A stretch of 64,000 bases of DNA, taken from contig NZ_ML660091.1 of the NCBI RefSeq assembly GCF_007004655.1, positions 1 through 64,000 on the forward strand, read 5' to 3'. This stretch comes from Exilibacterium tricleocarpae. Lineage in GTDB: Bacteria > Pseudomonadota > Gammaproteobacteria > Pseudomonadales > Cellvibrionaceae. Shown here piece after piece: positions 2,372 through 57,973 of the stretch. The notes beneath the pieces were generated by a model. It was not told the DNA's origin, ran no database searches, and worked only from the letters and a program-made list of their open reading frames with translations. Numbering within the stretch: the first letter of the stretch is position 1; the number at the start of each line of letters is the position of its first letter. A program made the translations under genes and the position numbers.

Positions 2372-2385
2372 TTGACAGAGGTCAA
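2372..2385 (+). promoter_or_regulatory. Perfect FNR-type box of phosphoketolase
   Basis: TTGAC-AGAG-GTCAA is a perfect 5+4+5 palindrome. A TAAAAAT stretch at 2408-2414 is centred about 32 bp downstream, where the -10 of a class II FNR promoter should be. This places transcription start near 2420, downstream of the possible GTG/ATG starts at 2404 and 2413, and so supports translation from 2455. Confidence 0.75.
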
Positions 2386-2454
2386 CCCGGTCGACCGGCG
2401 TCCGTGGTAAAAATGCGTCATCTCCGCTCCGAACCCGATAGGAAATCCGCTGCT

Positions 2455-4851
2455 ATGAAAGAAGTAACCACCGGCACGGCAAGCGCCGACGGCCCGCTGT
2501 CCGCCGAGGAACTGCATCGGCTCGACAGCTACTGGCGCGCCGCCAATTACCTCAGCGTGGGACAGATCTATTTGCTGGACAACCCGCTGTTGCGCGAACC
2601 CCTGACGGCGGCGCATATCAAACCGAGGCTGCTCGGCCACTGGGGCACCACCCCGGGTCTCAATTTTATCTATGCCCATCTGAACCGCGTTATCAAAGCG
2701 CGGGACCTGGATATGATTTATATCGCCGGTCCCGGTCACGGCGGTCCGGCGCTGGTGGCCAACACCTACCTGGAGGGCAGCTACGGCGAAATATATCCGG
2801 ATATATCCGCCGATGCCGAGGGCATGAAAAAACTGTTCCGGCAGTTCTCCTTTCCGGGCGGTATCTCCAGCCACTGCGCGCCCGAAGTGCCGGGTTCGAT
2901 TCACGAGGGCGGCGAGTTGGGCTACTCGCTGGCCCACGCCTTCGGCGCGGTGTTTGACAACCCGGACCTGATCGCCTGCTGTGTAGTGGGCGACGGCGAG
3001 GCGGAAACCGGTCCGCTGGCCACCGCCTGGCACTCCAACAAATTCCTCAATCCCGCCAGCGATGGCGCCGTATTGCCGATTTTACATCTCAATGGTTACA
3101 AGATTGCCAATCCCACTCTGCTGGCGCGTATCGGGCGCGACGAACTGGAGCAACTGTTTAACGGTTACGGTTATCAGCCCTATTTTGTCGAGGGCACCGA
3201 TCCCCACATCATGCACCAGTTGATGGCCGCTACTGTGGATGCGGCTACCGATGCCATCGCGGCGATTCAGCGCGAGGCGCGCGCCGCCGGCGCCGGCGCG
3301 GTGCAGCGCCCCCGCTGGCCGGTAATCATTCTGCGCAGCCCCAAGGGTTGGACCGGGCCGAAAACCGTCGACGGCCTGGCATCGGAAGACTCCTGGCGCT
3401 CGCACCAGGTGCCGTTTGCCGATATGTCGGAGCAGACCGACCATATCGGTCTGCTGGAGCGCTGGCTGCGCAGCTACCGCCCCGAAGAACTGTTCGATGC
3501 CGGCGGTGCGCTGGCGCCGGAACTGGCGGCGCTGGCGCCGGCCGGCAACCGGCGCATGGGCGCCAACCCCCACGCCAACGGCGGCCTGTTGTTGCGGGAA
3601 CTGCGGCTGCCGGATTACCGAACCTACGCCGTTGCAGTGACACAACCGGGCGCAGTGCTCGGGGAGGCGACGCGCGTGATGGGCAACTACCTGCGCGATG
3701 TTATGGAACGCAATCTCGCCGCCGCCAACTTCAGGGTAATGGGGCCGGACGAGACCGCCTCCAACCGCCTGGATGCGCTCTATGAAGTCACCGACAAGAC
3801 CTGGCTGGCCGATACCCTCGACGCCGATGAACACCTGGCACCAACCGGCAGGGTGATGGAAATGTTGAGCGAACACACCTGCCAGGGCTGGCTTGAGGGC
3901 TATCTGTTAACCGGGCGTCACGGTTTTTTTTCCTGCTACGAAGCGTTTATCCATATCGTCGACTCGATGTTCAACCAGCACGCCAAGTGGCTGAAGGTCA
4001 GCCAGGAAATTCCGTGGCGACGCCCGCTGGCGTCGCTCAACTACCTGCTTACCTCCCACGTCTGGCGCCAGCAGCACAACGGTTTTTCCCACCAGGACCC
4101 CGGCTTTATCGATCACGTGGTGAATAAAAAAGCCGATATAGTGCGCGTGTACCTGCCGCCCGATGCCAATACCCTGTTGTGTGTTACCGACACATGCCTG
4201 CGCAGCCGCGACTTTATCAACGTCGTGGTCGCCGGCAAGCAGCCCCAGCTCCAGTGGCTGGATATGGATGCGGCCGTCAAACACTGCAGCGCCGGCATCG
4301 GTATCTGGGAGTGGGCCAGCAACGACCAGGGCGGCGAGCCGGATGTGGTACTGGCGGCGGCGGGCGACGTGCCCACCCTTGAGGTACTGGCGGCCGTCGG
4401 GCTGTTGCGCCGCCAGGTGCCGGACCTGAAAATCCGCGTTATCAATGTGGTTGACCTGATGACGCTGCAACCGCGGGAGGAGCATCCCCACGGTTTATCG
4501 GATCGCGACTTCGACACCCTGTTTACCACCGACAAACCGATTATCTTCGCCTACCACGGCTATCCCTGGCTGATTCACCGCCTCACCTACCGGCGCACCA
4601 ATCACCACAATCTGCATGTGCGCGGTTACAAAGAAGAGGGCAGCACCACCACGCCGTTCGATATGGCGGTGCGCAACGACCTGGATCGCTTTCACCTGGT
4701 GGCGGATGTTATCGATCGGGTGCCGGCCCTGGGTTACCAGGCGGCCTACACCCGCCAGTGGATTCGGGACAAACTGATTGAACACGGCCACTATATCCGC
4801 GCCCATGGCGAGGATATGCCGGAAATACTGAACTGGCGCTGGGAGGGTTGA
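2455..4851 (+). CDS. xfp: Phosphoketolase (xylulose-5-P / fructose-6-P)
   Basis: A thiamine-diphosphate enzyme of 798 residues, the usual length. It cleaves xylulose 5-phosphate (and often fructose 6-phosphate) with phosphate to acetyl phosphate plus glyceraldehyde 3-phosphate (or erythrose 4-phosphate). The N-terminus carries [15 protein letters not shown], followed by [10 protein letters not shown], the FPGGISSH segment and the ThDP/metal motif [17 protein letters not shown], all phosphoketolase hallmarks. ATG 2455 is preferred because it has an AGGAAA upstream and the predicted transcription start lies after the earlier in-frame starts at 2404 and 2413. The CBS gene follows with 5 bases between. 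It supplies acetyl phosphate for ATP formation during fermentation; no classical ackA is visible in the window. Confidence 0.95.
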
Positions 4852-11026: not shown

Positions 11027-11844
11027 AAGTGCCGGGCTTCGTCACGGAAACCTGGCTGCGCCAGCACTTCGGTCTGGCCCCGGGCAGCGAGGTGCACCTG
11101 CCGGCCACAGCCCGGCTGACGCCCGCCGCCGAACAGTTACTGGGCGAGCGGCAGATCCGGGTCAAGCATATCGACAGTGCCGGTCAGGTCTATGTCGGCG
11201 GCGAGGCCGGCGCTGCGAAGGCGCCTGTGCACCCGCTGACCGGCGCCAACCGGCGCCCGGGAAACCGCTGCGCCGCCTGTGCCGGTGAGGTGCGCGACAA
11301 AGGCGAACTGTTGACCTTGCTCGACGATAAACTGCTGGTGCCGAAAACCCATGCCCGCATCGCACTGCGCGGTAAGCTCGATACCCTGATCGCCCAAACT
11401 ATATGGGTGCAGACACAGTTTGACAGACCGAAGCAGTACCCGGTGCTGCACAAGTGGCTGGCCGATTTGCGGTCTTACATGGGCAACGTATTGCGCAGCG
11501 AGGTCACCGGTGCAGATCTGCCACCGCTCGGTATGGGGGATATGGATTGCCAAACCTTGCACGCGCTGTCGCACCATCCACTCAAATACCTGGGCCACGA
11601 TCATCTCGTGCCGGAGGCCGACCACGGCGACAATGTTGCCTTGTTGAATTTGCTGCGGGCCCTGGTGCGGGAGGCGGAGCTGGCGGCGGTGCGGGCTTTT
11701 ATCAACGACGATCTCGAATTGCTGCGGCCCGATATCGTGCGCGGGCTCAATCGCCTCAGCAGTGCGCTTTACGTGTTGATGCTGATGACGGTGGTCAGTG
11801 AGACCGGCGCCGGCAAACTACCGGAACAGGTATCTGCACCGTGA
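11023..11844 (+). CDS. eutT: EutT, cob(I)alamin adenosyltransferase
   Basis: A 273-residue enzyme that transfers the adenosyl group of ATP to cob(I)alamin to make the coenzyme for EutBC. It matches enterobacterial EutT along its length (ETWLRQH..., HHPLKYLGHDHLVPEADHG, RPDIVRGLNRLSSALYV). The family's metal motif H-x11-C-C-x2-C is altered: His70 is present, but the first Cys position is Arg82, followed by Cys83 and Cys86. The GTG start overlaps the eutQ stop, and the 3' end overlaps eutD, indicating translational coupling. Confidence 0.94.
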   Translation: MKVPGFVTETWLRQHFGLAPGSEVHLPATARLTPAAEQLLGERQIRVKHIDSAGQVYVGGEAGAAKAPVHPLTGANRRPGNRCAACAGEVRDKGELLTLLDDKLLVPKTHARIALRGKLDTLIAQTIWVQTQFDRPKQYPVLHKWLADLRSYMGNVLRSEVTGADLPPLGMGDMDCQTLHALSHHPLKYLGHDHLVPEADHGDNVALLNLLRALVREAELAAVRAFINDDLELLRPDIVRGLNRLSSALYVLMLMTVVSETGAGKLPEQVSAP

Positions 11845-12821
11845 ATGTCATACAGCAATGCCAAACCCAATGCCGGGCGGCACCTCAGAAAGTCGTCTTT
11901 GCCGATGCGCTGGACCCGCGCGTGTTGGACGCCGCCGGCGTCTTGAAACGCGAGGGCCTGGCCGAACCGATTTTGATCGGCAACCCCCTGGCCCTGCGCG
12001 ACTGTGCCGGGCGCGCCGGCATGGCCTTGCCCGGCTTGACGGTTATCGACCCGCTGCATTGCGATAATTTTGAGTCGTTTGCAGAAGCTTACCTGGCGCT
12101 CGACAACAGCGGCCTTGATAGCGAGGGGGCGCGCCAGTCGTTAAGTAATCCGCTGTTCTATGCGGCGATGCTGGTGCGCAGCGGACAGGCCGATATCTGT
12201 ATCGCCGGCAATCTGTCCACCACCGGCGCGGTGCTGCGGGCGGCGTTGAAAGTGATCGGTGTCGCCGAGCAGCATGAAACCGTTTCCTCCTTTTTTATGA
12301 TGTCGTCGCCGGACGGCAAAGACGTGCGCCTGTTTGCCGATGCCGGTGTGGTGCCCGAGCCTACGGTTGCGCAACTGGCGGATATCACCATCGATGCGGC
12401 GCGCAACTATGCCAAGCTGACCGGGGACGTCCCCCGGGTTGCGATGCTGTCGTTTTCCACCAAGGGCAGTTCCGATCATCCGGCGGCGCGACGGGTGCGC
12501 GAGGCGTTCGAGCAGGTGCGGGCCAAAGCGCCGGATTTGATCGTCGATGGCGAACTGCAGTTTGACGCCGCCGTGGTGCCGGCGGTGGCGCAACAAAAAT
12601 CTCCCGACAGCCCGCTGCACGGGAACTCGAATGTCATGATATTTCCGTCGCTCAACGCCGGCAATATCGCCTACAAAGTTGCCCAGCGCCTGTGTCACTA
12701 CCAGGCACTCGGGCCTTTGCTGCAGGGGTTGATGCGCCCCATGCACGATCTGTCTCGCGGTTGCAGCGCGGACGATATTGTTAATATCGCGGTGTTGGCG
12801 TCATGCCTGAACAGACCGTGA
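11841..12821 (+). CDS. eutD: EutD, phosphate acetyltransferase
   Basis: The 326-residue enzyme converts acetyl-CoA and phosphate to acetyl phosphate and free CoA, recycling CoA inside the microcompartment. It belongs to the Pta/PTA_PTB family: it begins VVFADALDPRVL-like, contains ADICIAGNLSTTGAVLRAAL and the C-terminal signature FPSLNAGNIAYKVAQRL with PMHDLSRGCS. The length equals the catalytic domain of Pta without the regulatory N-terminus. It starts with GTG overlapping eutT by 4 bases. Acetyl phosphate made here would join that from phosphoketolase. Confidence 0.96.
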   Translation: MNVIQQCQTQCRAAPQKVVFADALDPRVLDAAGVLKREGLAEPILIGNPLALRDCAGRAGMALPGLTVIDPLHCDNFESFAEAYLALDNSGLDSEGARQSLSNPLFYAAMLVRSGQADICIAGNLSTTGAVLRAALKVIGVAEQHETVSSFFMMSSPDGKDVRLFADAGVVPEPTVAQLADITIDAARNYAKLTGDVPRVAMLSFSTKGSSDHPAARRVREAFEQVRAKAPDLIVDGELQFDAAVVPAVAQQKSPDSPLHGNSNVMIFPSLNAGNIAYKVAQRLCHYQALGPLLQGLMRPMHDLSRGCSADDIVNIAVLASCLNRP

Positions 12822-45023: not shown

Positions 45024-45647
45024 TTATAAAATATCGGCAGAGGCGTCAGCCTCGATTTTCATCCGCACCAGTTGCGCGAGGGTGCGCACTTCGAGTTTCT
45101 TCATGACATGGGAGCGGTGCACTTCGACGGTGCGTTCGCTGATACCGAGGTCGAGGGCAATGGCTTTGTTCATTTCGCCCGCGGCAACGCGATAAAAAAC
45201 CTCGAGTTCACGCTCCGACAGGGCGGCTATCTTGTTCAGCAGTTTTTGGCGATCGAGCTGATGGCGGCGTTTGCCGGCATCGACCTCGAGGGCCTCGTTG
45301 ATGCGATCGAGCAGTTCCTGTTCGCGAAACGGTTTGCGAATAAAATCCAGGGCGCCGTGGCGCATGGCTTCCACCGCCATGGGGATATCGCCGTGACCGG
45401 TGATAAAAATCACCGGCAGCAGACAGCCTTGTTGGTTGAGCCTGGCCTGCAGCTCCAGGCCGGTCATACGCGGCATGCGGATGTCGAGCAGCAGGCAGCC
45501 GCTTTTATGCGGGTCGTAAGCGTCGAGAAAAGCCGGCGCGGAACTGTAGAGCTCACAGGGTTGACCGACACTGTTGAGCAACAGACCGAGGCCTTCGCGA
45601 ATACCGGGGTCGTCATCGACGATAAAGACGGTTTGTTTGCTGTCCAT
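45024..45647 (-). CDS. FixJ-like response regulator
   Basis: A 207-residue regulator with receiver (1-~120; acidic residues 11-13, phospho-acceptor Asp55 in LLLDIRMPRMTG, Lys in FIRKPF) and a LuxR-type helix-turn-helix (~140-200; LSERELEVFYRVAAGEMNKAIA, ISERTVEVHRSHVMKKL). It is the direct downstream partner of the histidine kinase at 45.65-48.06 kb with 3 bases between. By analogy with FixJ it activates promoters when the kinase senses low oxygen. Confidence 0.94.
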   Translation of the reverse strand: MDSKQTVFIVDDDPGIREGLGLLLNSVGQPCELYSSAPAFLDAYDPHKSGCLLLDIRMPRMTGLELQARLNQQGCLLPVIFITGHGDIPMAVEAMRHGALDFIRKPFREQELLDRINEALEVDAGKRRHQLDRQKLLNKIAALSERELEVFYRVAAGEMNKAIALDLGISERTVEVHRSHVMKKLEVRTLAQLVRMKIEADASADIL

Positions 45648-45650
45648 CCG

Positions 45651-48056
45651 TTAGGCTTCCTGAAGCGTTGAAGAACTGTTTGCCGGAGGCAATGAGAAAA
45701 AAAATGTCGCCCCGGCCGCGGTGTTGTTGTAAAACCCCAGCTGTCCGCCGTGGGCGCTGATGATGGCCTGGCAGATGGATAACCCCAGACCCAGGCCGGA
45801 ATCCTTGGTGGTCGAAAACGGGCTGAAGATTTTTTCCGCCGCCTGTTTCGAGACGCCGCAACCGCTGTCTACTACGGCTACCTGTACCCCGCTGTCGGCG
45901 CCGGGTTGGGTTTGCAGCCTGATCGTGCGGCCATGGCGACAATCGGTCGAGCGCATGGCCTCCATGCCGTTGCGCAGTAGATTGAGGGCGACCTGTTGAA
46001 TCTGCACCGCATCGACCGCAACCAGCGGCAGACCCTCGCCGGTATTGACCTCAATTGTGATATTCATAAGGCGGGCGTCGACCTCAGCGAGCTTTGCCAC
46101 TTCCGTTACCAGGGTGTTGCAGTCGGTGATTTCCTTGGCACTCTCGCCGCGCCGCGCCAGCGTCAGCATCCGCTCGATCACATTGCCGGCGCGCTGGGCG
46201 TGTTGACTGAGTTTGTCGAAGATATCGACCACCTGGTCCCGCTCCCCGCTTTCGAACAGGCGCTTGCCCGCCTGGGCGAACAGCGAAATGGCCGTCAGCG
46301 GCTGGTTGATTTCATGGGCGATACCGGTGGCCATTTCACCCAGCATATTAAGGCGATCGACGTGGGCCAGTTGCGCCCGGTGCTCGCGCGCTTCCAATTC
46401 AGCCGCCCGCTGGCGGGAAATGTCCCGAATCAGTCCGACGAAGCGGTGGTGCGGCGGGTGGGGCAACTCGCTGACCGACAGCGAGATCGGAAACACCGTC
46501 CCGTCCGCGCGGCGCGCTTCGACGTCGCGATCGCGGCCGATCATGCGCGGCTGCCCCGTGGTCAGATAGTCGGCCATATAGTGATCGTGCTCGCCGCGAT
46601 AGGGGTCGGGCATCAATTCGCGCACATTGCGGCCGCGGATTTCTTGTGCAGAGTAGCCGAACATCTGCTGGGCGGCCCGGTTGAAGGTTTCTATGGCGCC
46701 GCCGGCATCGATGGTAATGACCGCCTCGGCGGCGGTATCCACCACGGCCTCGGAAAACGCGCGGGCCTCCTCCAGGGCGAGCTCGGCGCGCTTGCGATCG
46801 GTGATGTCGTTGATAATGCCTTCGATATGAATCCCGTTATCTGCCGCCACCGAAACGGCGCGGCCCCGCTCCCACATCCAGCGCTCCTCATTTTCACGGG
46901 TGACAATACGGTACTCGATCTCGAAACTCTCCCTCGCATCGATGGCGCGCTGTACTTTTTGCCAGATAGGCGGACGATCCTCGGGGTGAATCAATTCTCC
47001 CCAAAATATCCTTTGCGTCTCGAAATCCCTGCGCCGATAGCCCGACAGGTGTTCGCACCCTTCGCTGACGAATTCCATCGGCCAGCTCGGTTTGTTGATA
47101 CAGCGATAGGCCATGCCCGGCAGATTCTGGAATACGCCCGCGAGGCGGCTGGCGGTGTCGTGCAATTGAAACGCGCGCAGTCGTGCGGTCACGGTAAGAT
47201 AGACCGCTGCCGCCACCAGTAGACTCAGCAGTAAACCAACCACCAGGCCGAGATTGGCGCGACGTGTATAGATATCGGCGACAAACTCGCGTTTTGGGGT
47301 CACGGCGGCGGCCCAGGTCAATCCCTGAACGGTGAACGCCCGCGGATTTTGCCAGCGGGCTGCCGCCGCTTCCCCCGGGGGATGATGGTGATAGACCTCC
47401 TGTCCGGTCAGAAAAATCCGGGCATCATGTTCCTCGAACTGCAGGCGGTTAAAAATCTGCTCCAGCCAGGCCTGCAGGCGCACCACGATAATCACCAAAC
47501 CATCAAAGCTACCGTTGCGCATCACCGGCGCAAAAGCGACTATTCCCGGTCCGCCTTTGGCGAGTTCGAAGGGCTGGCTCACGGTCGCCGTGCCGCTGGC
47601 GCGGGCGGCATCGGCGGCGGCACGCGCCGGATGGGTCGGACTGATATGCAGACCGCGGGCGGCCTCGTTGCCGGCCAGTGGGTAAATCCAGCGCACCCGC
47701 ATATCGGTATCGGCCCATTCGATGGCCTGCACACCGGGCATATCCGCCACATAACTGGCCGCATCCGCCTCCCAGAGCGGCCGCGGCATGCCGCCGGTGG
47801 CGGTCCAGCGCTGCGCCAGCCGAGCGAGCGCCGCCCGGCGCTGCGCCATATCCTCGCGAATCAGCAGCTCAATGGTGTGGCCGGCGTAACCGGTGGCGGC
47901 GCCGATATGCTCGCGGGCGCGTTCGTTGAGTGATTGCCGCAACGCAGCCACCGCTACGGCCATCAGAGCACCGGCCAACAGCGCCAGCCACAGCGCCCGG
48001 CGTTTGCTCCAGGCGTGCTGCAGCGGCCGGTACCAGCGCTGCCTTAACACCGGCAT
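45651..48056 (-). CDS. CHASE/PAS sensor histidine kinase, FixL-like
   Basis: An 801-residue membrane kinase. Order: helix ~22-40, periplasmic CHASE-like domain (~70-265), helix ~270-292, PAS/PAC (~300-415), second PAS (~428-545), HisKA with the phospho-His in ATGIAHEINQPLTA, and HATPase (~680-795; N-box NLLRNGMEAM, DSGCGVS). The second PAS matches the FixL haem PAS: the segment LMPDPYRGEHDHYMADY keeps the proximal haem His as His490 and Tyr493, followed by IGRDRDVE. Oxygen sensing through haem is therefore plausible in addition to a periplasmic input. It is co-transcribed with the FixJ-like gene. Confidence 0.92.
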   Translation of the reverse strand: MPVLRQRWYRPLQHAWSKRRALWLALLAGALMAVAVAALRQSLNERAREHIGAATGYAGHTIELLIREDMAQRRAALARLAQRWTATGGMPRPLWEADAASYVADMPGVQAIEWADTDMRVRWIYPLAGNEAARGLHISPTHPARAAADAARASGTATVSQPFELAKGGPGIVAFAPVMRNGSFDGLVIIVVRLQAWLEQIFNRLQFEEHDARIFLTGQEVYHHHPPGEAAAARWQNPRAFTVQGLTWAAAVTPKREFVADIYTRRANLGLVVGLLLSLLVAAAVYLTVTARLRAFQLHDTASRLAGVFQNLPGMAYRCINKPSWPMEFVSEGCEHLSGYRRRDFETQRIFWGELIHPEDRPPIWQKVQRAIDARESFEIEYRIVTRENEERWMWERGRAVSVAADNGIHIEGIINDITDRKRAELALEEARAFSEAVVDTAAEAVITIDAGGAIETFNRAAQQMFGYSAQEIRGRNVRELMPDPYRGEHDHYMADYLTTGQPRMIGRDRDVEARRADGTVFPISLSVSELPHPPHHRFVGLIRDISRQRAAELEAREHRAQLAHVDRLNMLGEMATGIAHEINQPLTAISLFAQAGKRLFESGERDQVVDIFDKLSQHAQRAGNVIERMLTLARRGESAKEITDCNTLVTEVAKLAEVDARLMNITIEVNTGEGLPLVAVDAVQIQQVALNLLRNGMEAMRSTDCRHGRTIRLQTQPGADSGVQVAVVDSGCGVSKQAAEKIFSPFSTTKDSGLGLGLSICQAIISAHGGQLGFYNNTAAGATFFFSLPPANSSSTLQEA

Positions 48057-49302: not shown

Positions 49303-50265
49303 TTACAACCATGTGCCGGCCTTATCCCATCGAAAAGTCGGGCCTTCGGCGCATCGGGTTTGGTAGCGGTGGGCGCACAAACCCGCCACACACGACATTT
49401 GCTCCCGCGCCGATACCCAGATAGCGCTCGGCGGCAGTCGTTGGGCCACCAGGTAAGCGGCTGCGGCCCGCATCATGGTGACGGAGCCGCACAGCAGTGC
49501 CCGGCTGGGCCGGCCAAATCGGGCCAGCACACCGGGCAGCGCCTCCGTGGCTGTGCCCGACAACCGCCGGCGTATGGAGGTGGCCGGGTAGCGCGGCATA
49601 ATGTTGGCGTCGGCGTAGGGGGGGGTGACGGCCGCTGCCGGCGGCGCGTATCCGGCGCCTTGTTCGAGCGTGTCGAATACATCGATCTGTTTTTGCCAGC
49701 GCTCCCGTTCCGGTGTCAACATCTGCGCTTCGGGGTCGCGGGCACCGTAGACCAGCGCCAGGCGCTCACACCAGTGTTCGGTCAGTAAATGGTCGATCAA
49801 CATCACCAGCGGTGCCAGCCCGTCGCCGGCGGCCACCACCAGCACCCGTTCGTCCCGCAGCGCGGCGAGCGGCCAGGGTTTGCCGAAAGGGCCGCGGGCA
49901 CCCAGGGTCGAGCCGACCTCCATATCGAACAGGGCCCGGTCGACGCCGTCCTGATGGCGAACCAGGACGCAAAATTCGCCGTACTGATTGGGAGGGTAGG
50001 TGAAGCTGAAAGGTGCCGCGCCGATTCCCGGTATGTCCAGCACCAGGAATTCTCCGGGCGATATTCCCCGCCAGACGTCGTCGCCGGGCCGGCCGAAGTC
50101 GGGAAAGCGAAACAGAAAATGGCGGGTCTGCCCGCCGTCGCTGTAGTAGTCCACCAGTTGCACAGCCCGCGTTGCCAGCCTGGTACGCCCGGCGGCGAAG
50201 TCGGTGACTGTACCACCGCTAACTCGCCCGCTCGGCGTTTGTTTGAACTTGGGCATAGCCACCAC
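49303..50265 (-). CDS. FAD/NAD(P)-binding oxidoreductase with C-terminal [2Fe-2S] site (HydG-like)
   Basis: A 320-residue ferredoxin-reductase-type protein: FAD-binding barrel (~30-130; APFSFTYPPN), NAD(P) domain (~138-280; RVLVVAAGDGLAPLVMLI, CGSVTMMRAAA), then a Cys-rich end SCVAGLCAHRYQTRC typical of the dihydroorotate dehydrogenase B-type iron-sulfur domain. It resembles gamma subunits of NiFe-hydrogenases/sulfhydrogenases, but no hydrogenase genes are near. An FNR-type box with a GATAAT -10 stands upstream, and its leader has an exact 22-bp tandem duplication. Electron partner unknown. Confidence 0.82.
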   Translation of the reverse strand: MVAMPKFKQTPSGRVSGGTVTDFAAGRTRLATRAVQLVDYYSDGGQTRHFLFRFPDFGRPGDDVWRGISPGEFLVLDIPGIGAAPFSFTYPPNQYGEFCVLVRHQDGVDRALFDMEVGSTLGARGPFGKPWPLAALRDERVLVVAAGDGLAPLVMLIDHLLTEHWCERLALVYGARDPEAQMLTPERERWQKQIDVFDTLEQGAGYAPPAAAVTPPYADANIMPRYPATSIRRRLSGTATEALPGVLARFGRPSRALLCGSVTMMRAAAAYLVAQRLPPSAIWVSAREQMSCVAGLCAHRYQTRCAEGPTFRWDKAGTWL

Positions 50266-50320
50266 CCTTTATTACCACCGTCCGCCCCCCGGTCACCGGC
50301 CCGCGCCGGTAACACCCGCC

Positions 50321-50364
50321 AAGACTGTCCGCAGGGTAGCCGAAGACTGTCCGCAGGGTAGCCG
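50321..50364. repeat. Exact 22-bp tandem duplication
   Basis: Two identical 22-base units containing ACTGTCCGCAGGGTAGCC lie end to end, just downstream of the predicted -10 of the minus-strand oxidoreductase promoter. Confidence 0.85.
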
Positions 50365-50400
50365 GGGTATCGAATTATCCCATCCCCGCCGGAACCCTGT

Positions 50401-50414
50401 TTGACACAGGTCAA
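50401..50414 (-). promoter_or_regulatory. Perfect FNR-type box of the oxidoreductase
   Basis: TTGAC-ACAG-GTCAA is perfect. On the minus strand a GATAAT hexamer (50379 to 50374) is centred 31 bp away. On the plus strand TTTAAA (50434-50439) is less well placed but could serve the nuclease gene, so the site may act in both directions. Confidence 0.7.
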
Positions 50415-50645
50415 CAATGGTGAACCTGTAACCTTTAAACTGCAAGGCTGCTCGGGTTACCCGTTGTTATCGGGTTTGTGTTTTCAGATGGTGTGGTCAG
50501 ATGGCGTTGTCGAGTCTTTGAGGCGCCGCGACGCCCCAAACCGGGACGTCAGCCGGTATGGGAGGCGTGTCGTATAGAGCGCAACAGCGCGGAAAAACCA
50601 GGGTAAGAGAAAACAACAATACAAGACAGTCGAGAGAGAACCGGT

Positions 50646-52043
50646 ATCAAAAAGCGAACAACAACGGGCGCCGCGCCGGCGCCGACACTGCAGTTTCTGG
50701 GGGCCGCGGAAACGGTCACCGGGTCGAAGTACCTGCTGAGCTGCCGGGACACTCATATACTGGTGGACTGCGGACTTTACCAGGGGACTAAAAACTACCG
50801 GCAGCGCAATTGGCAGCAGTTGCCGGTGGCGGAAGACCAGATCAGCGCCATCGTCCTCACCCACGCCCATATCGATCACAGCGGCTATATCCCGGCCCTG
50901 GTGAAAAGAGGCTTTCGCGGCCCCGTTTACTGCAGTGAGGGTACGCTGGCGCTGTGCGAAATACTCCTGCCCGACGCCGGTTACCTGCAGGAAGAGGACG
51001 CCCGCTACGCGAATAAGCACCGGGTCAGCAAACACCACCCGGCCCTGCCGCTGTTTACCGAACAGGACGCGCGGCGCGCGCTGCGGGTATTCCGCCCCGC
51101 GATCTACCATGAATCGGTGGCACTCGGCGACGGCATGACGCTGCAGTTCAGCCCGGCCGGCCATATTATCGGCGCCTGTTCTGCACGTATCACGGCGGCG
51201 GGGCGCAGTGTGGTGTTCAGCGGCGATATCGGTCGCCCCAATGATCCGGTGATGTGCGCCCCGGCCCCCCTCGATAAAACCGATTATCTGATTGTAGAGT
51301 CGACTTACGGCGATCGCCGGCACGCGCCGGTCGATCCGATGGCGTCGTTGAAAGCGGTGATCAATCGCACAGTGAAGCGGGGCGGCGTCGTGTTGATACC
51401 CGCGTTTGCCGTCGGCCGCGCGCAGATGATCTTATACCTTTTGCAGGAGTTGATGGCGACGGAGGCGATCCCCAGGGTGCCGGTGCATCTGAACAGCCCC
51501 ATGGCGCTGGCGGCCACTGAGGTGTTCAACCGCTTCCACAGCGAACACAAGCTGTCGGCGCAGGATTGCCGGCAGATTGTCGATAATACGCACTTTGTCG
51601 GTTCGGTGGAGGAGTCCAAAGCGCTGGTAAACCAGGTCTACCCCTCGATTATTATTTCCGCCAGCGGCATGGCCAGCGGCGGTCGGGTGATACATCATTT
51701 GAAAGCACTGGTCGGCGATCATCGCAACAGCGTCGTGTTTGTCGGCTTTCAGGCGCCCGGCACCCGCGGCGATGCCCTCGTCAAAGGTGCTGACGCGGTT
51801 AAAATGCACGGCCACTACTACGATGTGAATGCGGAAATCGTCGATATCGAAGGCCTGTCTGCCCACGCCGATTACCGGGAAATCATCGACTGGTTACAAC
51901 CGCTGCGGGAGGAACCGCCCCGCCATACGTTCGTCACCCACGGCGAAAAGGCGGCGGCGGACAGTTTGCGGCTCCACCTCCAGGATCAACTCGGGTGGTC
52001 GGCCTCGGTGCCGGAATATCTCGACAGTGTGGTATTGGATTGA
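50646..52043 (+). CDS. MBL-fold beta-CASP ribonuclease (CPSF73-like), start uncertain
   Basis: A metallo-beta-lactamase/beta-CASP nuclease of about 450-465 residues (Ysh1/RNase J-related). It has LQFLGAAETVTGSKYLLS at the N-terminus, the zinc motif THAHIDHSGY, SGDIGRPNDP, the beta-CASP block ESTYGDRRHA to RVPVHLNSPMA, and C-terminal SGMASGGRVIHHL and GLSAHADYREI. The conserved N-terminus is in frame from 50688, yet no ATG, GTG or TTG lies between the in-frame stop at 50604 and GTG 50763; ATC 50646 (GAGAGAG about 8 bases upstream) or CTG 50688 are the candidates. It is followed after 36 bases by a nucleoside-phosphorylase gene, suggesting RNA breakdown feeding that enzyme. Confidence 0.85.
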   Translation: MKKRTTTGAAPAPTLQFLGAAETVTGSKYLLSCRDTHILVDCGLYQGTKNYRQRNWQQLPVAEDQISAIVLTHAHIDHSGYIPALVKRGFRGPVYCSEGTLALCEILLPDAGYLQEEDARYANKHRVSKHHPALPLFTEQDARRALRVFRPAIYHESVALGDGMTLQFSPAGHIIGACSARITAAGRSVVFSGDIGRPNDPVMCAPAPLDKTDYLIVESTYGDRRHAPVDPMASLKAVINRTVKRGGVVLIPAFAVGRAQMILYLLQELMATEAIPRVPVHLNSPMALAATEVFNRFHSEHKLSAQDCRQIVDNTHFVGSVEESKALVNQVYPSIIISASGMASGGRVIHHLKALVGDHRNSVVFVGFQAPGTRGDALVKGADAVKMHGHYYDVNAEIVDIEGLSAHADYREIIDWLQPLREEPPRHTFVTHGEKAAADSLRLHLQDQLGWSASVPEYLDSVVLD

Positions 52044-52079
52044 GGGCCGGGTGAACTTGCAGAGACTGGACGCCTGAGT

Positions 52080-53588
52080 ATGTTGGAAAATGGCTCTCGT
52101 GGCCTGACAGCCACCCGTATGGGTATCGACACCCAACAGGAGCTGGTGGTCTATATGCGCTCAGACTGCCAGGTCTGCCGCTCTGAGGGCTTTGTGGCGC
52201 AGACGCGCGTGAGACTGCGCCTCGAGGAGCGCTATATCATCGCCAAGTTGAACCTGGTCTCGGCGGCGCTGCTGGCGCCGGGCAGCATCGGACTGTCGGA
52301 CAGTGCCTGGCATAAGCTCGGCGCCGCGGAGGGCGACAGGCTGCGGGTGGAGCATCCTCACTACCTGACCTCGCTCAGTTTTGTGCGCAGCAAAATATTC
52401 AACAACCGTCTGTCGGCCCAGGCCATCAGGCATATTATCGGTGACATCGCCGCCGGGCGCTATTCCGATGTGCACCTGGCGGCGTTTCTGACCGCCTGTT
52501 CCGGCGATCGTCTGGACCTGCCGGAAATCATCGATCTCACCAAGGCGATGGTCAGCGTCGGCAAGGTACTGTCCTGGCCCGGGCGCTCGACGGTGCTCGA
52601 CAAGCACTGTGTGGGTGGTCTGCCGGGCAATCGCACGACGCCGATCGTCGCGGCGATTGTGGCCGCGGCGGGGCTCACTATCCCGAAGACCTCATCGCGT
52701 TCCATCACGTCCCCGGCGGGTACGGCAGACACCATGGAGGTCTTGACCGGGGTGGAACTCAGCCTGGAGCAGCTACAGGCGGTAGTCGGCGCCGAAGGGG
52801 CCTGCCTGGCCTGGGGCGGCAGTATCAATATCAGCCCTGCCGACGATCTGCTGATCCGGGTGGAAAGGGCCATTAATCTCGACGGTGAAGGACAGTTAAT
52901 CGCCTCCGTGTTATCGAAAAAAATCGCCGCCGGGGCCACCCATGTCATTATTGATATCCCGGTGGGAGAGTCCGCCAAGGTCCGCAGCCAGAAGCGCGCC
53001 AGGCACTTGTCGACGTTATTCGCCGCGGTGGGCAATGAACTGGGTATCCGCGTGCTGCCGGTCATTACCGATGGCCGCCAGCCGGTCGGCTTCGGTATTG
53101 GTCCGGCGCTGGAGGCGGCGGATGTGATGGCGGTGCTGCAGCGTTCCCCGCAGGCCCCGGTGGATTTGCGCCGGCGTGCGTTGTTCCTGGCCGGCCTGCT
53201 GCTGGAGCTGTCGGACCAATATGCCCCGGGAGAGGGCCGCGCGGTGGCCGAGTCGCTGCTCGACAGCGGCAGCGCCTGGGAAAAGTTTCGTGCCGTGTGC
53301 CGCCGCCAGGGTGGTTTGAAAAGCATTCCCACAGCGCCTTATCAACGCCGGATCTGCGCCCGTACCGGTGGTCGGGTGAAAAGTTTCGACAACCGGCAAC
53401 TGGCGCAGATCGCCAAGCTGGCCGGTGCGCCCAAGGCCAAAGCGGCGGGTATTCAACTCGCCAAAAAGCTCGGCGATACCGTAACGGCGGGTGAGTTGTT
53501 GATGACAATTCACGCCGAAACCCAGGGCGAGCTGCGCTATGCGGAAAATTTTTACCACCGGGTGGAGAATGTGTGTCGGATTGAGTAG
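52080..53588 (+). CDS. Thymidine/AMP phosphorylase family enzyme (archaeal-type)
   Basis: A 502-residue member of the glycosyltransferase family 3 phosphorylases, in the subgroup with an extra ~85-residue N-terminal domain that includes archaeal AMP phosphorylases and bacterial putative thymidine phosphorylases. Motifs: STVLDKHCVGGLPGNRTTP, KTSSRSITSPAGTADTMEVL, INISPADDLLIRVERAINLD, and a C-terminal domain with VTAGELLMTIHAE. The likely reaction is phosphorolysis of a nucleoside or nucleoside 5'-phosphate, releasing the base and ribose phosphate. The pairing with a beta-CASP nuclease argues for nucleotide salvage from RNA; whether AMP or thymidine is used cannot be read here. Confidence 0.9.
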   Translation: MLENGSRGLTATRMGIDTQQELVVYMRSDCQVCRSEGFVAQTRVRLRLEERYIIAKLNLVSAALLAPGSIGLSDSAWHKLGAAEGDRLRVEHPHYLTSLSFVRSKIFNNRLSAQAIRHIIGDIAAGRYSDVHLAAFLTACSGDRLDLPEIIDLTKAMVSVGKVLSWPGRSTVLDKHCVGGLPGNRTTPIVAAIVAAAGLTIPKTSSRSITSPAGTADTMEVLTGVELSLEQLQAVVGAEGACLAWGGSINISPADDLLIRVERAINLDGEGQLIASVLSKKIAAGATHVIIDIPVGESAKVRSQKRARHLSTLFAAVGNELGIRVLPVITDGRQPVGFGIGPALEAADVMAVLQRSPQAPVDLRRRALFLAGLLLELSDQYAPGEGRAVAESLLDSGSAWEKFRAVCRRQGGLKSIPTAPYQRRICARTGGRVKSFDNRQLAQIAKLAGAPKAKAAGIQLAKKLGDTVTAGELLMTIHAETQGELRYAENFYHRVENVCRIE

Positions 53589-53659
53589 CGGCTGTTTAAG
53601 GGCAGGGCGGGCGGGTGATAGCGTATTGCAACAGTAGCCTGGCCAGGGTGAAACAGTCG

Positions 53660-54325
53660 CTACTGGTAATGGTTGTCTTCCTCATACTCGCCGATTTTGT
53701 AGCCGGTCAACAACGATAACAGTTCCACCGGCGATTTTGTTTTCATTTTGCGCATCATACTGGAGCGGTACACATCCACAGTGCGGCTGCTCAGACCCAA
53801 TTCGGCGGCGATGACCTTGGTCTGCCGCCCGGCGACCACGCCGTCCAGCACCTGGCGTTCCCGCGGGGTAAGCTCCTGCAGGCGCCGGCGCACGTCTGCC
53901 GGCATGTCACCGGGCAGTGTGGTTTGGCCATCGCGCTCCAGCGCCTTGTGTATACACCCCAGTAAATCGTTGTCGTTAAACGGCTTTTGAAAAAAGTCAT
54001 AGGCGCCCAGCTTGATTGCGCGCACTGCCATGGGTACGTCGCCGTGACCAGTAAGCATAATGACCGGCGTGCTCACACTGCGCGCCTTGAGGGTTTTCAA
54101 CAGCGCCAGGCCGTCGATCTCCGGCATGCGGACATCGAGCAACAGGCATTGGGGCGGGTGTGGCTTGAATACCTCGAGAAAAGACGCCGCGTCGGCGAAG
54201 ATTTGCGTTTGCAGACCGTGGGAGCGCAAAAACAGGTCGATGGCGTTCAACACCGCCGTATCGTCATCGACGATAAAAACGGTTCCCCTCGCTATCGCCT
54301 TCGTTGCTCTGTCAGTCGTCCCCAT
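53660..54325 (-). CDS. FixJ-like response regulator (second pair)
   Basis: A 221-residue regulator: receiver with acidic residues 20-22, phospho-acceptor Asp64 in LLLDVRMPEIDG and Lys in FFQKPF; LuxR-type helix-turn-helix (~140-205; LTPRERQVLDGVVAGRQTKVIA, LSSRTVDVYRSSMMRKM). Its start codon lies inside the end of the preceding histidine kinase gene (14-base overlap), so the pair is translationally coupled. It is similar in layout to the pair at 45-48 kb. Confidence 0.94.
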   Translation of the reverse strand: MGTTDRATKAIARGTVFIVDDDTAVLNAIDLFLRSHGLQTQIFADAASFLEVFKPHPPQCLLLDVRMPEIDGLALLKTLKARSVSTPVIMLTGHGDVPMAVRAIKLGAYDFFQKPFNDNDLLGCIHKALERDGQTTLPGDMPADVRRRLQELTPRERQVLDGVVAGRQTKVIAAELGLSSRTVDVYRSSMMRKMKTKSPVELLSLLTGYKIGEYEEDNHYQ

Positions 54326-56156
54326 GGTCAGCGCCTTTTAAGATCTTATAAGCCGGCAGGGTAAAGTAAAACTCGGCACCCTTGCGTTTACGATGATTAA
54401 AATCCAGTTTGCCGCCATGGCCATTGATAACCGATTGGCAGATGGACAGGCCGATGCCCATGCCGGACTCCTTAGTGGAATAGTAGGAGGTGAAAATCTT
54501 GTCCCGATCGGCCTTGGCGATACCGACACCGGTATCGCTGACTGAAACCCGCACCCAATTGTCTTCCGTCAACCCGGTTTTTATTTTTATCAGGCGTTGC
54601 CCGTCACCTTTGGCATTGATGGCGTCAATACCGTTAAGAATAAGATTGAACAGGATTTGCTGCAACTGTACGGTGATGCCGTTGATCTCGGGCAGGTGCG
54701 GCTGCAGTACAGTTTGCAAAATAATATTTTGATCTTTCAGGTCATCGGCTAATAGGGTTAGCGTATAGTCAATGAGTTTGTTGATATCGATGGGAATGGG
54801 ATCGATTTCGCGCTGTTTCACCTGGACACGCAATTGTGAGATTACCCCGCCGGCACGACGCGATTGCTTGCTGATTTGTTGCAAGGCGTTTTTCAGCTCC
54901 GCCGGCTGCGCAGTCGTGGTATTTTCCATCAGTTGCAGGCAGGCCTGGGCGTAGGTGGAAATCGATGCCAGCGGCTGGTTGATTTCATGGGCAATTTCGG
55001 TGGCGATTTCGCTCAGCGTCATAATGCGCGAAATGTGCACCATATCCTCGCGGTACTGGCGCACCTCTTCGTTGTGTTGTCGTGTCAGGCGTTCCATCTC
55101 TTTTTGTTCGGTCAGGTCCTTGATAATGCCGGTGAGAATAATCTGATTGCCGACGGCCACTTCGATAACGGTCAATTGCACGGGAAAAGCGTCGCCGTTT
55201 TTGCGGCGGCCTTCAGCTTCAATGGTGTTGCCCGACAGTTTGGGGTGACCGGTGCGCAGGTAGCGGGCAATGTCCTCGTGGCGGTGGGCGTCGGGGAGCA
55301 GGCGGGTTATATCGCCGCCCAGTACTTCCTCGCTGCGGTAGCCGAAAATCTTTTCCGCCGCCTGGTTGAATGACGTGATCTCGCCGCGCAGATCGATATT
55401 GACAATACCGTCGGGCACGGTGTTTAAAACCGCGCTGGCTTTGGCTTCGGACCAGCGCAGCTTGTTTAACAGGGTCTCGCGCTCGGTGACATCCTGAAAC
55501 ATCCAGATTGACATGGATTCATCAATGCCGTGATGAGACAGCTCCAGCAGTCGTGGCGCGCCGGTTTTAGTGGTAATTGGCACAATAATCGGGGTCGAGC
55601 GGTCGATGCAGTCCCAGCTTTTACTCTTGTGTTTGAAGCCGGTAACGATGTTTTTGGGAAACAGGGCGTACCACTGGTCGATGGAATCGAATTCCTTGCG
55701 GTTATAACCGGTGATGGCCGTGGCCGCCTTATTCATATAGAGAGTGTCCGGAGTGGTCACCACAGCACCTGCCGGGAGGTGCTCGATCGCCCGCCGCTCG
55801 ATATGGCTGCGGCGGTCGCTGCTGTCCAGCGAGGTGAACATGATACAGTCATCGCCGTCGTAAGTGCAGTGTTTAAAGTAGGCCTTGACGGGGTAGTGGG
55901 AGCCGTCCTTGCGCAGATAGTCGACTTCCCGGCTCGGCGTCTCGGGCGGGCTGTGTCGCAACATGGGTTCGAGCTGGCGGTACAGGCTCGACGCTTGCTG
56001 TTTACCGAGCAACTCATCCGGCGTCATTTTTTGGAACTGCTCAAGCGAGTAGCCCAGATTCCTGCCGATGTTGGCATTGGCGTAGCAAACGCGTTCGAAT
56101 TGTTTGTCAATAACCACAATTTCGAAGGGGAAGGCTTCGAGCAAGGTTGGGTTCAT
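54312..56156 (-). CDS. Soluble multi-PAS sensor histidine kinase
   Basis: A 614-residue cytoplasmic kinase with no membrane helix. Three PAS modules (~10-115, ~120-235, ~245-365), HisKA with the phospho-His in ATEIAHEINQPLAS, and HATPase (~500-605; NLILNGIDAI, VSDTGVGIAKADRDKIF). The third PAS is FixL-like (SFNQAAEKIFGYRSEEVLGG), but the position of the FixL haem His is not clearly conserved (DAHRHEDIARYLRTG). ATG 56156 is favoured by a GGAAG upstream; an open frame extends to 56222. It overlaps the FixJ-like gene. FNR is encoded on the other strand, so two regulators diverge from here. Confidence 0.9.
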   Translation of the reverse strand: MNPTLLEAFPFEIVVIDKQFERVCYANANIGRNLGYSLEQFQKMTPDELLGKQQASSLYRQLEPMLRHSPPETPSREVDYLRKDGSHYPVKAYFKHCTYDGDDCIMFTSLDSSDRRSHIERRAIEHLPAGAVVTTPDTLYMNKAATAITGYNRKEFDSIDQWYALFPKNIVTGFKHKSKSWDCIDRSTPIIVPITTKTGAPRLLELSHHGIDESMSIWMFQDVTERETLLNKLRWSEAKASAVLNTVPDGIVNIDLRGEITSFNQAAEKIFGYRSEEVLGGDITRLLPDAHRHEDIARYLRTGHPKLSGNTIEAEGRRKNGDAFPVQLTVIEVAVGNQIILTGIIKDLTEQKEMERLTRQHNEEVRQYREDMVHISRIMTLSEIATEIAHEINQPLASISTYAQACLQLMENTTTAQPAELKNALQQISKQSRRAGGVISQLRVQVKQREIDPIPIDINKLIDYTLTLLADDLKDQNIILQTVLQPHLPEINGITVQLQQILFNLILNGIDAINAKGDGQRLIKIKTGLTEDNWVRVSVSDTGVGIAKADRDKIFTSYYSTKESGMGIGLSICQSVINGHGGKLDFNHRKRKGAEFYFTLPAYKILKGADHGDD

Positions 56157-56388
56157 GGGGTTGCTTCCACTGGCGAGACCTGGGTTGATACTAGTCATAT
56201 GTGTCGCGCCAGGCAACGGCAATGGGGCTATCCGCAGGCATATACGTAGTTTTACTTAATAGTAATTACTGTATTTATCTGACTGGGGGCCAGGCAGTAG
56301 AATCACTGGGAGCGTGGAGGGGTAACCGGCCTGGACAGGTGCGCGTCGAAAAATGGCCGGTGCCAAAACGACAGTCAAGGGACCCGGT

Positions 56389-57159
56389 ATGAAAATCATA
56401 GCTACGTCCGTGGCTCAGCCCGCGGGCAAATCGAGCTGCAAAAACTGCTTCCAGTTTCAAAACTGTCTTTGGGGCGAATATCTCACCGAGCAACTGCCTG
56501 AATTTGAACGCTTGATCACCCACAAGCGACCTTTCGGTCGAGGCCAGCATGTGGTGATGGCGGGGCAGAAGTCCGAAGGACTGTGCCTGGTGCGCTCCGG
56601 TTGCCTGAAAGCGTATACGGTAAACAAAGAGGGGGAGTCCCAGGTCATCGGTTTTTACATGCCGGGGGAGTTGGTCTGTATCGATGATTTATGCAACGGT
56701 ATATACCCCTACAACGTTGAGGCTTTGGACACCAGCAGTGTTTGCATTATTCCGCTGGAGGCATTGTTTAGGTTGAGCAGTCTCTACCCGACCGTGATTC
56801 AAAAAGTGTTGGAGAAGCTCAGCTACAATATGCGCCGCGAGCACGAGCAGATGTTCGTACTCACCAAGATGAATGCCAAACAGCGACTGGCGGCCTTTTT
56901 AATCGATATTTCCGACCGCATGGAACGCTGCCACCAGGCGGACGACGGTGAGCTCAATATCTCCATGCGCCGCAGCGATATCGCCAATTTCCTGGGCATG
57001 GCGACGGAGACGGTAAGCCGCTGGATGTCCCGGTTTCAAAACGAGGGCATTATCCGAGTCAACCGCCGGCATATCACCATCAAGGATATGCAAAAACTGA
57101 AGCTTGTTATGAACTGTGCCGAATCATCCATCGAACTGCCGTTGGAGAAAACGGCGTAG
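56389..57159 (+). CDS. fnr: FNR-type oxygen-sensing transcription regulator
   Basis: A 256-residue Crp/Fnr-family regulator. All four [4Fe-4S] ligands of Escherichia FNR are kept: Cys17, Cys20 and Cys26 (SSCKNCFQFQNCLW) and Cys119 in TSSVCIIPLEAL. The cNMP-binding-like barrel spans ~40-150, the dimer helix ~150-180, and the helix-turn-helix ~195-225 has the FNR-specific recognition pattern ETVSR, which reads TTGAT-type half-sites. ATG 56389 follows AAGGGA; an in-frame start at 56353 would add 12 residues. With its cluster intact it should dimerise when oxygen is low and bind the FNR-type palindromes found across the window. Confidence 0.96.
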   Translation: MKIIATSVAQPAGKSSCKNCFQFQNCLWGEYLTEQLPEFERLITHKRPFGRGQHVVMAGQKSEGLCLVRSGCLKAYTVNKEGESQVIGFYMPGELVCIDDLCNGIYPYNVEALDTSSVCIIPLEALFRLSSLYPTVIQKVLEKLSYNMRREHEQMFVLTKMNAKQRLAAFLIDISDRMERCHQADDGELNISMRRSDIANFLGMATETVSRWMSRFQNEGIIRVNRRHITIKDMQKLKLVMNCAESSIELPLEKTA

Positions 57160-57248
57160 GACTGCTGCGAGAACCGCAGATCGGGAGTCGGCCGTCACTG
57201 CGGTATCCGTAGTGACGGCCCTACAGCGCAGGGCCGAGACAGCGGCTG

Positions 57249-57701
57249 TCAGTTACGGTGATGTCCCGAGACAGCTTTCAGCATACCGGCTGTCGCATCG
57301 TATTTTAGCGACGCGTTTCTCCCGGTTTTAGCACAGGCGATAATATCGCCCATTGAAACGATACCGGTAATCGTACCGTCGCCATTGGTGACGGGCAGAC
57401 GCCTCACTTTGTATTCCTGCATCAGTTCCAGTGCCGTGCTGAGGTCATCGGTTTCCCGACAGGTGTACACCGGCTTGGCGGCGGTGATATCGCCGGCTTT
57501 CATATCCCACAGGGGTTTGTGTCCCAGCGCTGCGCCCATGGCGATATCCCGGTCGGTGACCACGCCCAGCGGTCTGTGCTCGTCATCGACTACCGGTATG
57601 CAACCGCAGTCGTGATTCCACATCATCAACGCGACCTGGTCCAGCGGTGCATCCGCATGGCAGGTGGATACGTTGCTGACCATTGTTTCCTGAATCTTCA
57701 T
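57249..57701 (-). CDS. CBS-domain pair protein (signal-transduction type)
   Basis: A 150-residue Bateman module of two CBS motifs (~1-62 and ~68-130), with GCIPVVDDEHRPLGVVTDRD (split) and GTITGIVSMGDIIACAK. ATG 57701 has AGGAGA 9 bases upstream; the open frame to 57743 is not needed. An FNR-type box lies 69 bases upstream. As with the CBS gene fused to the xfp transcript, an adenine-nucleotide sensing role in low-oxygen metabolism is likely. The C-terminal ~20 residues are unstructured. Confidence 0.92.
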   Translation of the reverse strand: MKIQETMVSNVSTCHADAPLDQVALMMWNHDCGCIPVVDDEHRPLGVVTDRDIAMGAALGHKPLWDMKAGDITAAKPVYTCRETDDLSTALELMQEYKVRRLPVTNGDGTITGIVSMGDIIACAKTGRNASLKYDATAGMLKAVSGHHRN

Positions 57702-57769
57702 GGTGAAAAGTCTCCTGTGCGGTTTCTGTTTACATCGCCCCAAGGATGGTCGTTACAGTTTTTTTGGCA

Positions 57770-57783
57770 TTGACGGGTGTCAG
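57770..57783 (-). promoter_or_regulatory. FNR-type box before the CBS gene
   Basis: TTGAC-GGGT-GTCAG matches with one mismatch, about 75 bases from the start codon at 57701. A convincing -10 on the minus strand is not seen at the expected place, so this is the weakest of the eight sites. Confidence 0.45.
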
Positions 57784-57914
57784 TTTTTGGGGCAGAACGC
57801 AAACATCCCGGTCGGATAACCCGGCTGCAAGCTGGTGGAAGAAGGTGCTGCCTTGACGATGCCCGCTTGGCCCATGGGGCGCGATACAAAATACGATTGC
57901 GCAGAGGATTTAGC

Positions 57915-57928
57915 TTGATTGAAATCAA
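57915..57928 (+). promoter_or_regulatory. Canonical FNR box of the APH/AAA kinase gene
   Basis: TTGAT-TGAA-ATCAA is a perfect Escherichia-type FNR box. TATACA at 57951-57956 is centred 32 bp downstream, as in class II FNR promoters; the ATG is at 57974. Confidence 0.8.
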
Positions 57929-57973
57929 TTTCCCGTTGCATCCTGCGGTGTATACATTAAACGGTCAGTTCCT

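Follow-up and report, generated by a model that had tools for sequence, protein, structure and literature searches.

A Beta-CASP Hydrolase and an Archaeal-Type Phosphorylase of Exilibacterium tricleocarpae: a Pair Linked to a Low-Oxygen Module without Its Usual PRPP-Synthase Partner

We analysed two adjacent genes from contig 5 of the 7.18 Mb genome of Exilibacterium tricleocarpae, within a stretch of 64,000 nucleotides that we call the window. The first encodes a predicted metallo-beta-lactamase (MBL)-fold hydrolase of the beta-CASP group, and the second a phosphorylase of the archaeal type. The phosphorylase is most suitably classed with the type 2 thymidine phosphorylase subfamily, within a low-oxygen-linked module and in a variant that lacks its usual partner, a paralog of phosphoribosyl pyrophosphate (PRPP) synthase (PRPS). 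Our preferred reading, to which we give somewhat less than an even chance, is that the pair is what remains, in this lineage, of a module for nucleotide catabolism at low oxygen that would ferment ribose phosphate to acetate and ATP; we infer the substrates, the direction of the reaction and RNA as the source, and RNA may act as an energy reserve.

According to this reading, an FNR/FixK-type regulator would switch the genes on under oxygen limitation; the beta-CASP enzyme, along with general ribonucleases, would take RNA down to nucleoside monophosphates (NMPs); with phosphate, the phosphorylase would cleave an NMP into its base and ribose-1,5-bisphosphate (R15P), or a nucleoside into its base and ribose-1-phosphate (R1P); the ribose phosphate would enter the pentose-phosphate pool, from which phosphoketolase and acetate kinase would form acetate and ATP. 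For most relatives, the adjacent PRPP-synthase paralog is the probable catalyst of the next step; we did not find it in the genome of the window. An earlier note on this DNA had proposed a similar route, which our results support in part: the archaeal type of the phosphorylase, the low-oxygen lead and the phosphoketolase link stand, while the AMP-phosphorylase score and the search for an outlet for R15P speak against it.

The Hydrolase and Phosphorylase Genes

The MBL frame (50646..52043, + strand) spans 465 codons and has Lactamase_B, Beta-Casp (118.6 bits) and RMMBL (61.7 bits) domains by Pfam (PF10996, PF07521); all six motifs sought, namely HAHIDH, AGH, SGD, ESTYG, SAHA and HGE, were found. 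The domains and catalytic motifs would place the product, as the earlier note had suggested, among the beta-CASP ribonucleases, and we regard it as a probable ribonuclease; its scores remain under the cut-offs of the RNase J (26.2 of 400 bits), aCPSF1 (277.5 of 580.2 bits) and Cas14 (376.7 of 800 bits) models. By sequence, the nearest protein of solved structure is the Thermus thermophilus ribonuclease TTHA0252 (2dkf, 240 bits). Since TTHA0252 is an endoribonuclease, it does not follow that the MBL enzyme itself converts RNA to mononucleotides; we know of no linkage of TTHA0252 to a phosphorylase.

Between the end of this frame (52043) and the start of the phosphorylase open reading frame (ORF; 52080) lie 36 bp, so that the layout already described for this beta-CASP/RMMBL hydrolase and phosphorylase is correct. 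The phosphorylase (52080..53588, + strand) matches NF003338 over its full length with 651 bits (cut-off 434) and TIGR02645 with 575.5 bits (cut-off 434.6), which makes it a member of the type 2 subfamily of thymidine/NMP phosphorylases; the classical DeoA model TIGR02643 gives 140.2 bits against a cut-off of 570.7. About 100 residues precede the Glycos_trans_3N domain, an N-terminal extension of the archaeal type, and the best solved structure is 4ga5, from Thermococcus kodakarensis. The AMP (NMP) phosphorylase of that archaeon is identical at 177 of 433 aligned residues (41%) and has in common with the window protein and with other loci the motif GG[VL]PGN[KR]T. Profile scores and structural match thus bear out the view that this is an archaeal-type phosphorylase with an extra domain and not a classical DeoA; the further identification as an AMP phosphorylase is not borne out by the score, the protein staying under the cut-off of the corresponding model, TIGR03327.

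The substrate of the window phosphorylase cannot be read from its sequence. Preparations of the T. kodakarensis enzyme phosphorolyse all natural 5′-mononucleotides, as stated in an excerpt of PMC8376864. The archaeal NMP pathway to which that enzyme belongs (TK0352, in an NMP shunt with R15P isomerase and RuBisCO) resembles our case in phosphorylase superfamily, N-terminal extension and shared motif; it differs in that the window protein scores below TIGR03327, that an R15P isomerase was not found in the window's genome and that the neighbour here is a beta-CASP nuclease. The thymine-contacting lysine of E. coli DeoA seems, without an alignment to a DeoA sequence, to be lacking a counterpart in the TAD(V/T)(V/M)E motif. 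One has to consider conventional nucleoside salvage, in which a pyrimidine-nucleoside or thymidine phosphorylase would release (deoxy)ribose-1-phosphate and the MBL protein would be a separate RNA-processing nuclease sharing the operon. NCBIfam and RefSeq do name the subfamily thymidine phosphorylase, and the AMP-phosphorylase cut-off is not reached; against this, the DeoA score is far too low, the best structure is archaeal, and deoB was not found in the genome, which leaves no usual entry route for R1P. We consider salvage unlikely.

Among the matches listed, the closest phosphorylase (78% identity) is that of L001, an Exilibacterium metagenome-assembled genome (MAG) of the Cellvibrionaceae. 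The MBL protein and the phosphorylase are 73–78% identical between the two, and L001 follows the gene order of the window from 49303 to 62819 (identities 54–78%), the genes at 57974 and 59559 excepted: NAD-binding oxidoreductase, MBL, phosphorylase, FixJ-like protein, FixL-like protein, FNR-type regulator, CBS protein, Hsp20 and Lon. The phosphorylase was not found in the four listed genomes of the window's own family. Aligned with relatives, the window phosphorylase keeps the common residue at 100 of 105 near-invariant columns and the MBL protein at 65 of 66; judged by sequence, both look intact.

The initiation codon of the MBL gene is less clear. Position 50646 is an ATC, and the first ATG, GTG or TTG in the frame is the GTG at 50763, a start that would cost the protein its conserved N-terminal strand; because this strand lies upstream of any standard codon, either the start is non-standard (ATC 50646 or another) or a base is wrong. 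The L001 homologue has an ATG near the conserved LQFLGAAETVTG strand. In the window, ATC 50646 is preceded by a GA-rich stretch and is the best candidate, unless the sequence is in error.

A Conserved Module Centred on the Phosphorylase and a PRPP-Synthase Paralog

We compared 81 loci, namely the window and 80 of at least 572 relatives taken from named genome records; several of them stop at contig ends, so that the partner counts are lower bounds. A PRPP-synthase homologue is present in at least 70 loci, 69 of these having it within 3.5 kb of the phosphorylase, and an MBL gene in at least 50 (47 within the same distance); the one representative of the homologue that was scanned matches NF005537/PRK07199 with 393 bits (cut-off 322). 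An even sample of the class, 369 gammaproteobacterial genomes of which some are incomplete, gave the same association: the phosphorylase is over cut-off in 76 genomes, the PRPS paralog is found at E 1e-60 in 79 (74 over cut-off), and the 71 genomes that have both carry them within 400 bp of each other without exception (Fisher p = 2.7e-60, like the Fisher tests below without correction for kinship). Five of the 76 phosphorylase genomes lack the paralog, the window's among them; two of the five, G123 and G058, are cut off by contig edges. In the taxonomic order to which the window belongs, the pairing is looser: the paralog lies within about 1.5 kb in 22 of the 30 loci examined, themselves 30 of 37 listed matches. 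Compared with this bacterial module of phosphorylase, PRPS and MBL, the window has the MBL gene in the same run, and no PRK07199 member was found beside its phosphorylase.

A phosphorylase tree built by a quick method, with L029 (where PRPS is a broken fragment) counted by hand as PRPS-bearing, joins the window and L001 with a support of 100 and places them beside a clade of nine members as its sister group (support 92). As these nine all have PRPS, its loss in the window's lineage appears likelier than a primitive absence. Absence of the paralog is scattered over the tree, requiring eight changes, five of them forced by starred branches (a count as low was reached in 22 of 500 shuffles); loss would therefore seem to have been repeated.

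Most carriers of the module are Pseudomonadota or Bacteroidota; it is also present on plasmids, where 112 of 72,556 records match the phosphorylase; a gene for a ribose-phosphate (pyro/di)phosphokinase lies within about 5 kb in all four of the plasmid regions that we picked by hand from these 112. On a conjugative Rhizobium plasmid (L101, 4150–10488), PRPS, a “xylulose 5-phosphate 3-epimerase” (a divergent phosphoketolase), MBL and phosphorylase follow each other in this order, the module forming a transferable unit. Identical or near-identical phosphorylases occur across families in L018/L022 (a Methylophaga MAG and Haliea), L054/L059 (Brucella grignonensis and Ciceribacter) and L064/L065/L066 (a Porticoccus MAG and Alcanivorax), which suggests recent transfer or binning errors. 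In L010, L019, L032, L034, L041 and others, mostly Bacteroidota, a protein with ATP-cone and Mrr-type nuclease domains (one representative scanned) is encoded just upstream of MBL, phosphorylase and PRPS. Long open frames that suggested phosphorylase–PRPS fusions were dropped, the longest (L084) being an apparent read-through in high-GC DNA.

An Altered PRPP Synthase

All 68 PRPS paralogs compared retain the ATP-site residues F.D.E, RQD, D.H and K.R. The pyrophosphate loop, which reads SPDxGGxxR in the canonical Prs of the window's genome, has become GPDxESxQW in 68 of 68, and DLHAEQ has become DPHLHR in the same 68. Given the roles of the ATP-site and loop residues, it is doubtful that the paralog transfers pyrophosphate, because the loop is rewritten throughout while the ATP site is kept; the enzyme may rather perform a single phosphoryl transfer between R15P and AMP or ADP.

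This leads to a bolder version of the preferred reading, unlikely enough for us to call it speculative: a bacterial NMP shunt for anoxia, free of RuBisCO and isomerase, in which the phosphorylase would make R15P, the PRK07199 paralog would move the 1-phosphate onto AMP or ADP to give ribose-5-phosphate and save a high-energy phosphate, and a phosphoketolase-family enzyme with acetate kinase would add ATP, RNA serving as emergency fuel; the window's lineage would have lost the paralog and would use another outlet.

The paralog, as the most constant partner, could also be placed in an anabolic recycling pathway during dormancy, in which RNA trimming by the beta-CASP enzyme would serve growth arrest and the phosphorylase, joined by PRPS in most relatives, would rebuild NMPs or PRPP by base exchange. 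An excerpt of Sato et al. does describe that the Thermococcus NMP phosphorylase also lets nucleosides become NMPs via R1P and R15P, and stress proteins such as Usp and CBS are found in some loci. The rewritten pyrophosphate loop does not suit this role, however, and neighbours of the acetate kinase and phosphoketolase type indicate catabolism, which makes anabolic recycling distinctly unlikely in our opinion.

FNR-Type Boxes and Control by Oxygen

The palindrome TTGACACAGGTCAA at 50401..50414 (no strand assigned) conforms to the strict FNR/FixK consensus, TTGAYN4RTCAA. It lies 231 bp upstream of 50646, and the divergent gene at 49303–50265 could be its target too; a strict box also precedes the MBL gene of L001. 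The window contains six strict boxes for 0.17 expected from shuffling, and none of 100 shuffles reached six. One is inside a coding region, and the other five stand shortly before genes: the phosphoketolase (2372), the first gene of a microcompartment/ethanolamine cluster (8891), the MBL gene (50401), an APH/AAA kinase (57915) and Hsp20-Lon (60015). The box reported near the pair is therefore confirmed, and its being strict, upstream and kept in L001 suggests that the pair belongs to an FNR/FixK regulon. A general rule for the other loci had to be rejected: a strict box is present in 1 of 80 (L001) for 0.93 expected, and boxes with at most one mismatch are not enriched.

Published expression data on like-named genes of Bradyrhizobium diazoefficiens point in the same direction. 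The excerpt of PMC6515984 lists bll3115, bll3116 and bll3117, named MBL-fold hydrolase, ribose-phosphate pyrophosphokinase and thymidine phosphorylase family, in a table of protein/gene expression differences in microoxia, where their values are positive. In the excerpt of PMC9104804, the three form a predicted operon that has a FixK box at −74; loss of FixK2 lowers bll3117 and bll3115 and, likewise, the phosphoketolase–acetate kinase pair bll2518-2517; bll3115 is also mentioned in PMC5017801. The resemblance to the window, as far as these excerpts go, consists in a phosphorylase-family gene and an MBL hydrolase gene in a predicted operon, FNR-family control and a separate phosphoketolase under FNR-family control; the Bradyrhizobium operon differs by its ribose-phosphate pyrophosphokinase and is matched to the window by RefSeq name and gene order alone. 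With the boxes of the window and L001, it supports control by anoxia, as formerly proposed, as a lead.

Three regulatory genes follow the pair, all syntenic in L001 and all under the cut-offs of their models: a convergent FixJ-type response regulator (53660..54325, − strand; NF006900, 223.5 bits, cut-off 255), a FixL-like PAS sensor kinase (54312..56222, − strand; NF041777, 264.5 bits, cut-off 850) and an FNR-type regulator (56353..57159, + strand; NF008365, 176 bits, cut-off 228), which is a candidate reader of the boxes. Two pairs of the FixL/FixJ kind thus stand within 11.2 kb, at 45024–48056 (by similarity to the L001 pair) and at 53660–56222 (by profile).

Phosphoketolase and Acetate Kinase

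The window encodes a phosphoketolase that might consume the ribose phosphate (2404..4851, + strand; NF003619, 1494 bits; three XFP Pfam domains), with a strict FNR-type box before it (2372..2385, no strand assigned), and the genome has an acetate kinase over cut-off. Across the 81 loci, a phosphoketolase-family ORF is found in at least 18, three of which (L034, L036, L041) are nearer the canonical type, and an acetate kinase in at least 10. Five of the nine loci of the sister clade (L005, L007, L008, L014, L022) have MBL, acetate kinase and a divergent phosphoketolase in one run, in the order phosphorylase, PRPS, MBL, one further gene, AckA and Xfp. Such runs (Kangiella, Haliea and others) contain the same two genes as the window and lie in the sister clade of its phosphorylase; unlike the window, they have the MBL gene after the phosphorylase, and the run includes the PRPS paralog, acetate kinase and divergent phosphoketolase. 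Of the 76 phosphorylase genomes of the class sample, 32 have the canonical phosphoketolase family; of the 293 others, 57 do (Fisher p = 1.3e-4). The divergent type was found in 9 of the 369 genomes, and six of these nine also have the phosphorylase (p = 0.003). These counts and the box before the window's own enzyme uphold the link to phosphoketolase drawn previously.

The divergent type has XFP and XFP_N Pfam domains and bears on one plasmid the RefSeq name “xylulose 5-phosphate 3-epimerase”. In the usual phosphoketolase numbering, the equivalents of His64, His97, His320, Glu479, His548 and His553 are kept in 14 of 14 sequences and His142 is replaced; a simple reading of this change is weakened by two of the three canonical-type neighbours, which differ there too. 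Two cofactor-motif columns also differ in all 14, where an alignment shift is possible.

An excerpt of a Lactobacillus rhamnosus paper (PMC3928093) proposes that nucleoside ribose is fermented via phosphoketolase and acetate kinase. Because that route has already been proposed there, the new parts here would be the entry through R15P and the altered PRPP synthase; among the papers listed, there was no functional study of a bacterial phosphorylase–PRPS–MBL operon.

The Fate of Ribose Phosphate and the Weight of the Evidence

The earlier note had proposed to look in the genome for a ribose-1,5-bisphosphate isomerase or kinase, and the search went against its route. R15P isomerase (TIGR00511) has no match at E 0.01 in the window's genome, which speaks against an archaeal NMP shunt in this organism; in the class sample, it is over cut-off in 0 of 369 genomes, the weaker matches in 216 of them (E 1e-40) being probably a related isomerase. 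The phosphopentomutase deoB has no match in the genome, and PhnN was not found over cut-off: the best match reaches 61.8 bits against 156 and is probably a related protein, for example guanylate kinase (14 of 14 control genomes also match, 1 of them over cut-off). As for the PRPS paralog, the search of the genome gave only a canonical-type Prs (24% identity) and no PRK07199 match at E 1e-60.

Two other candidates did not hold up. The APH/AAA kinase at 57974, considered as a substitute for PRPS, has a homologue near the PRPS-less phosphorylase of L086 but was not found in the loci of the 80 relatives, and a PfkB–class II aldolase pair (39915–41933), considered as a haloarchaeal R1P kinase and Ru1P aldolase, has both members under cut-off and stays a lead. 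As observations in their own right, the kinase gene (57974–59548) encodes an APH-plus-AAA_33 protein with an FNR-type box at 57915 and a homologue 44% identical in L086 (2625–4115), and the divergent PfkB kinase and its aldolase might belong to another ribose-phosphate route.

Several points thus weigh against the preferred reading. Since R15P isomerase, PhnN over cut-off, deoB and the PRPS paralog were not found in the genome, R15P or R1P has no known outlet there; this is the main weakness of the proposed route in this organism, some relatives fitting it better. The phosphorylase scores 468.5 bits with TIGR03327, short of the AMP-phosphorylase cut-off of 535. The sole link to RNA is the MBL gene, in at least 50 of 81 loci, and the phosphoketolase family searched for is in only 32 of the 76 phosphorylase genomes. 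A box with at most one mismatch precedes the module in 6 of 60 proteobacterial loci for 4.2 expected, the window and L001 being among the six, and in 0 of 19 non-proteobacterial loci (sorted by hand). Finally, 8 of the 30 loci from the window's taxonomic order have no PRPS nearby: one is the window, L131 is truncated by the edge of its contig, and five of the others, read again over 6 to 19 kb, still showed no PRPS. In one of these five, L136, a divergent phosphoketolase directly follows the phosphorylase.

Such gaps invite the view that the pair is a leftover with little metabolic role, its partner lost in the window's lineage, and the missing paralog, the MBL start that is not ATG, GTG or TTG and the lack of the phosphorylase in the four genomes of the same family all agree with it. 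We hold this for very improbable: nearly all conserved residues are kept in both proteins, and gene order and box persist in L001 at 73–78% identity. A remnant of the catabolic module remains, tentatively, the reading we prefer.

Other Features of the Window

The ethanolamine-utilisation/microcompartment cluster (8891–25775), whose first gene is closely preceded by a strict FNR-type box, includes EutP, EutQ, a cobalamin adenosyltransferase-like protein and a phosphotransacetylase by profile, and EutH/A/B/C-like and shell proteins by eye; the phosphotransacetylase (11841..12821, + strand) has 362 bits with NF007233 (cut-off 310) and 301 with TIGR00651, under its cut-off of 311. Between 24001 and 32000, G+C is 45–49%, against 54–63% elsewhere in the window, which suggests an acquired segment.

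Significance

That RNA may be an energy reserve in oxygen-starved bacteria is, to our knowledge, an open idea. The conserved set described here, that is, a nuclease, a nucleotide phosphorylase and an altered PRPP synthase, to which some lineages add a phosphoketolase-type enzyme and acetate kinase, makes it directly testable in harmless species that can be cultured, and the module draws attention to an apparently uncharacterised enzyme of the Prs family that databases label as a PRPP synthase.

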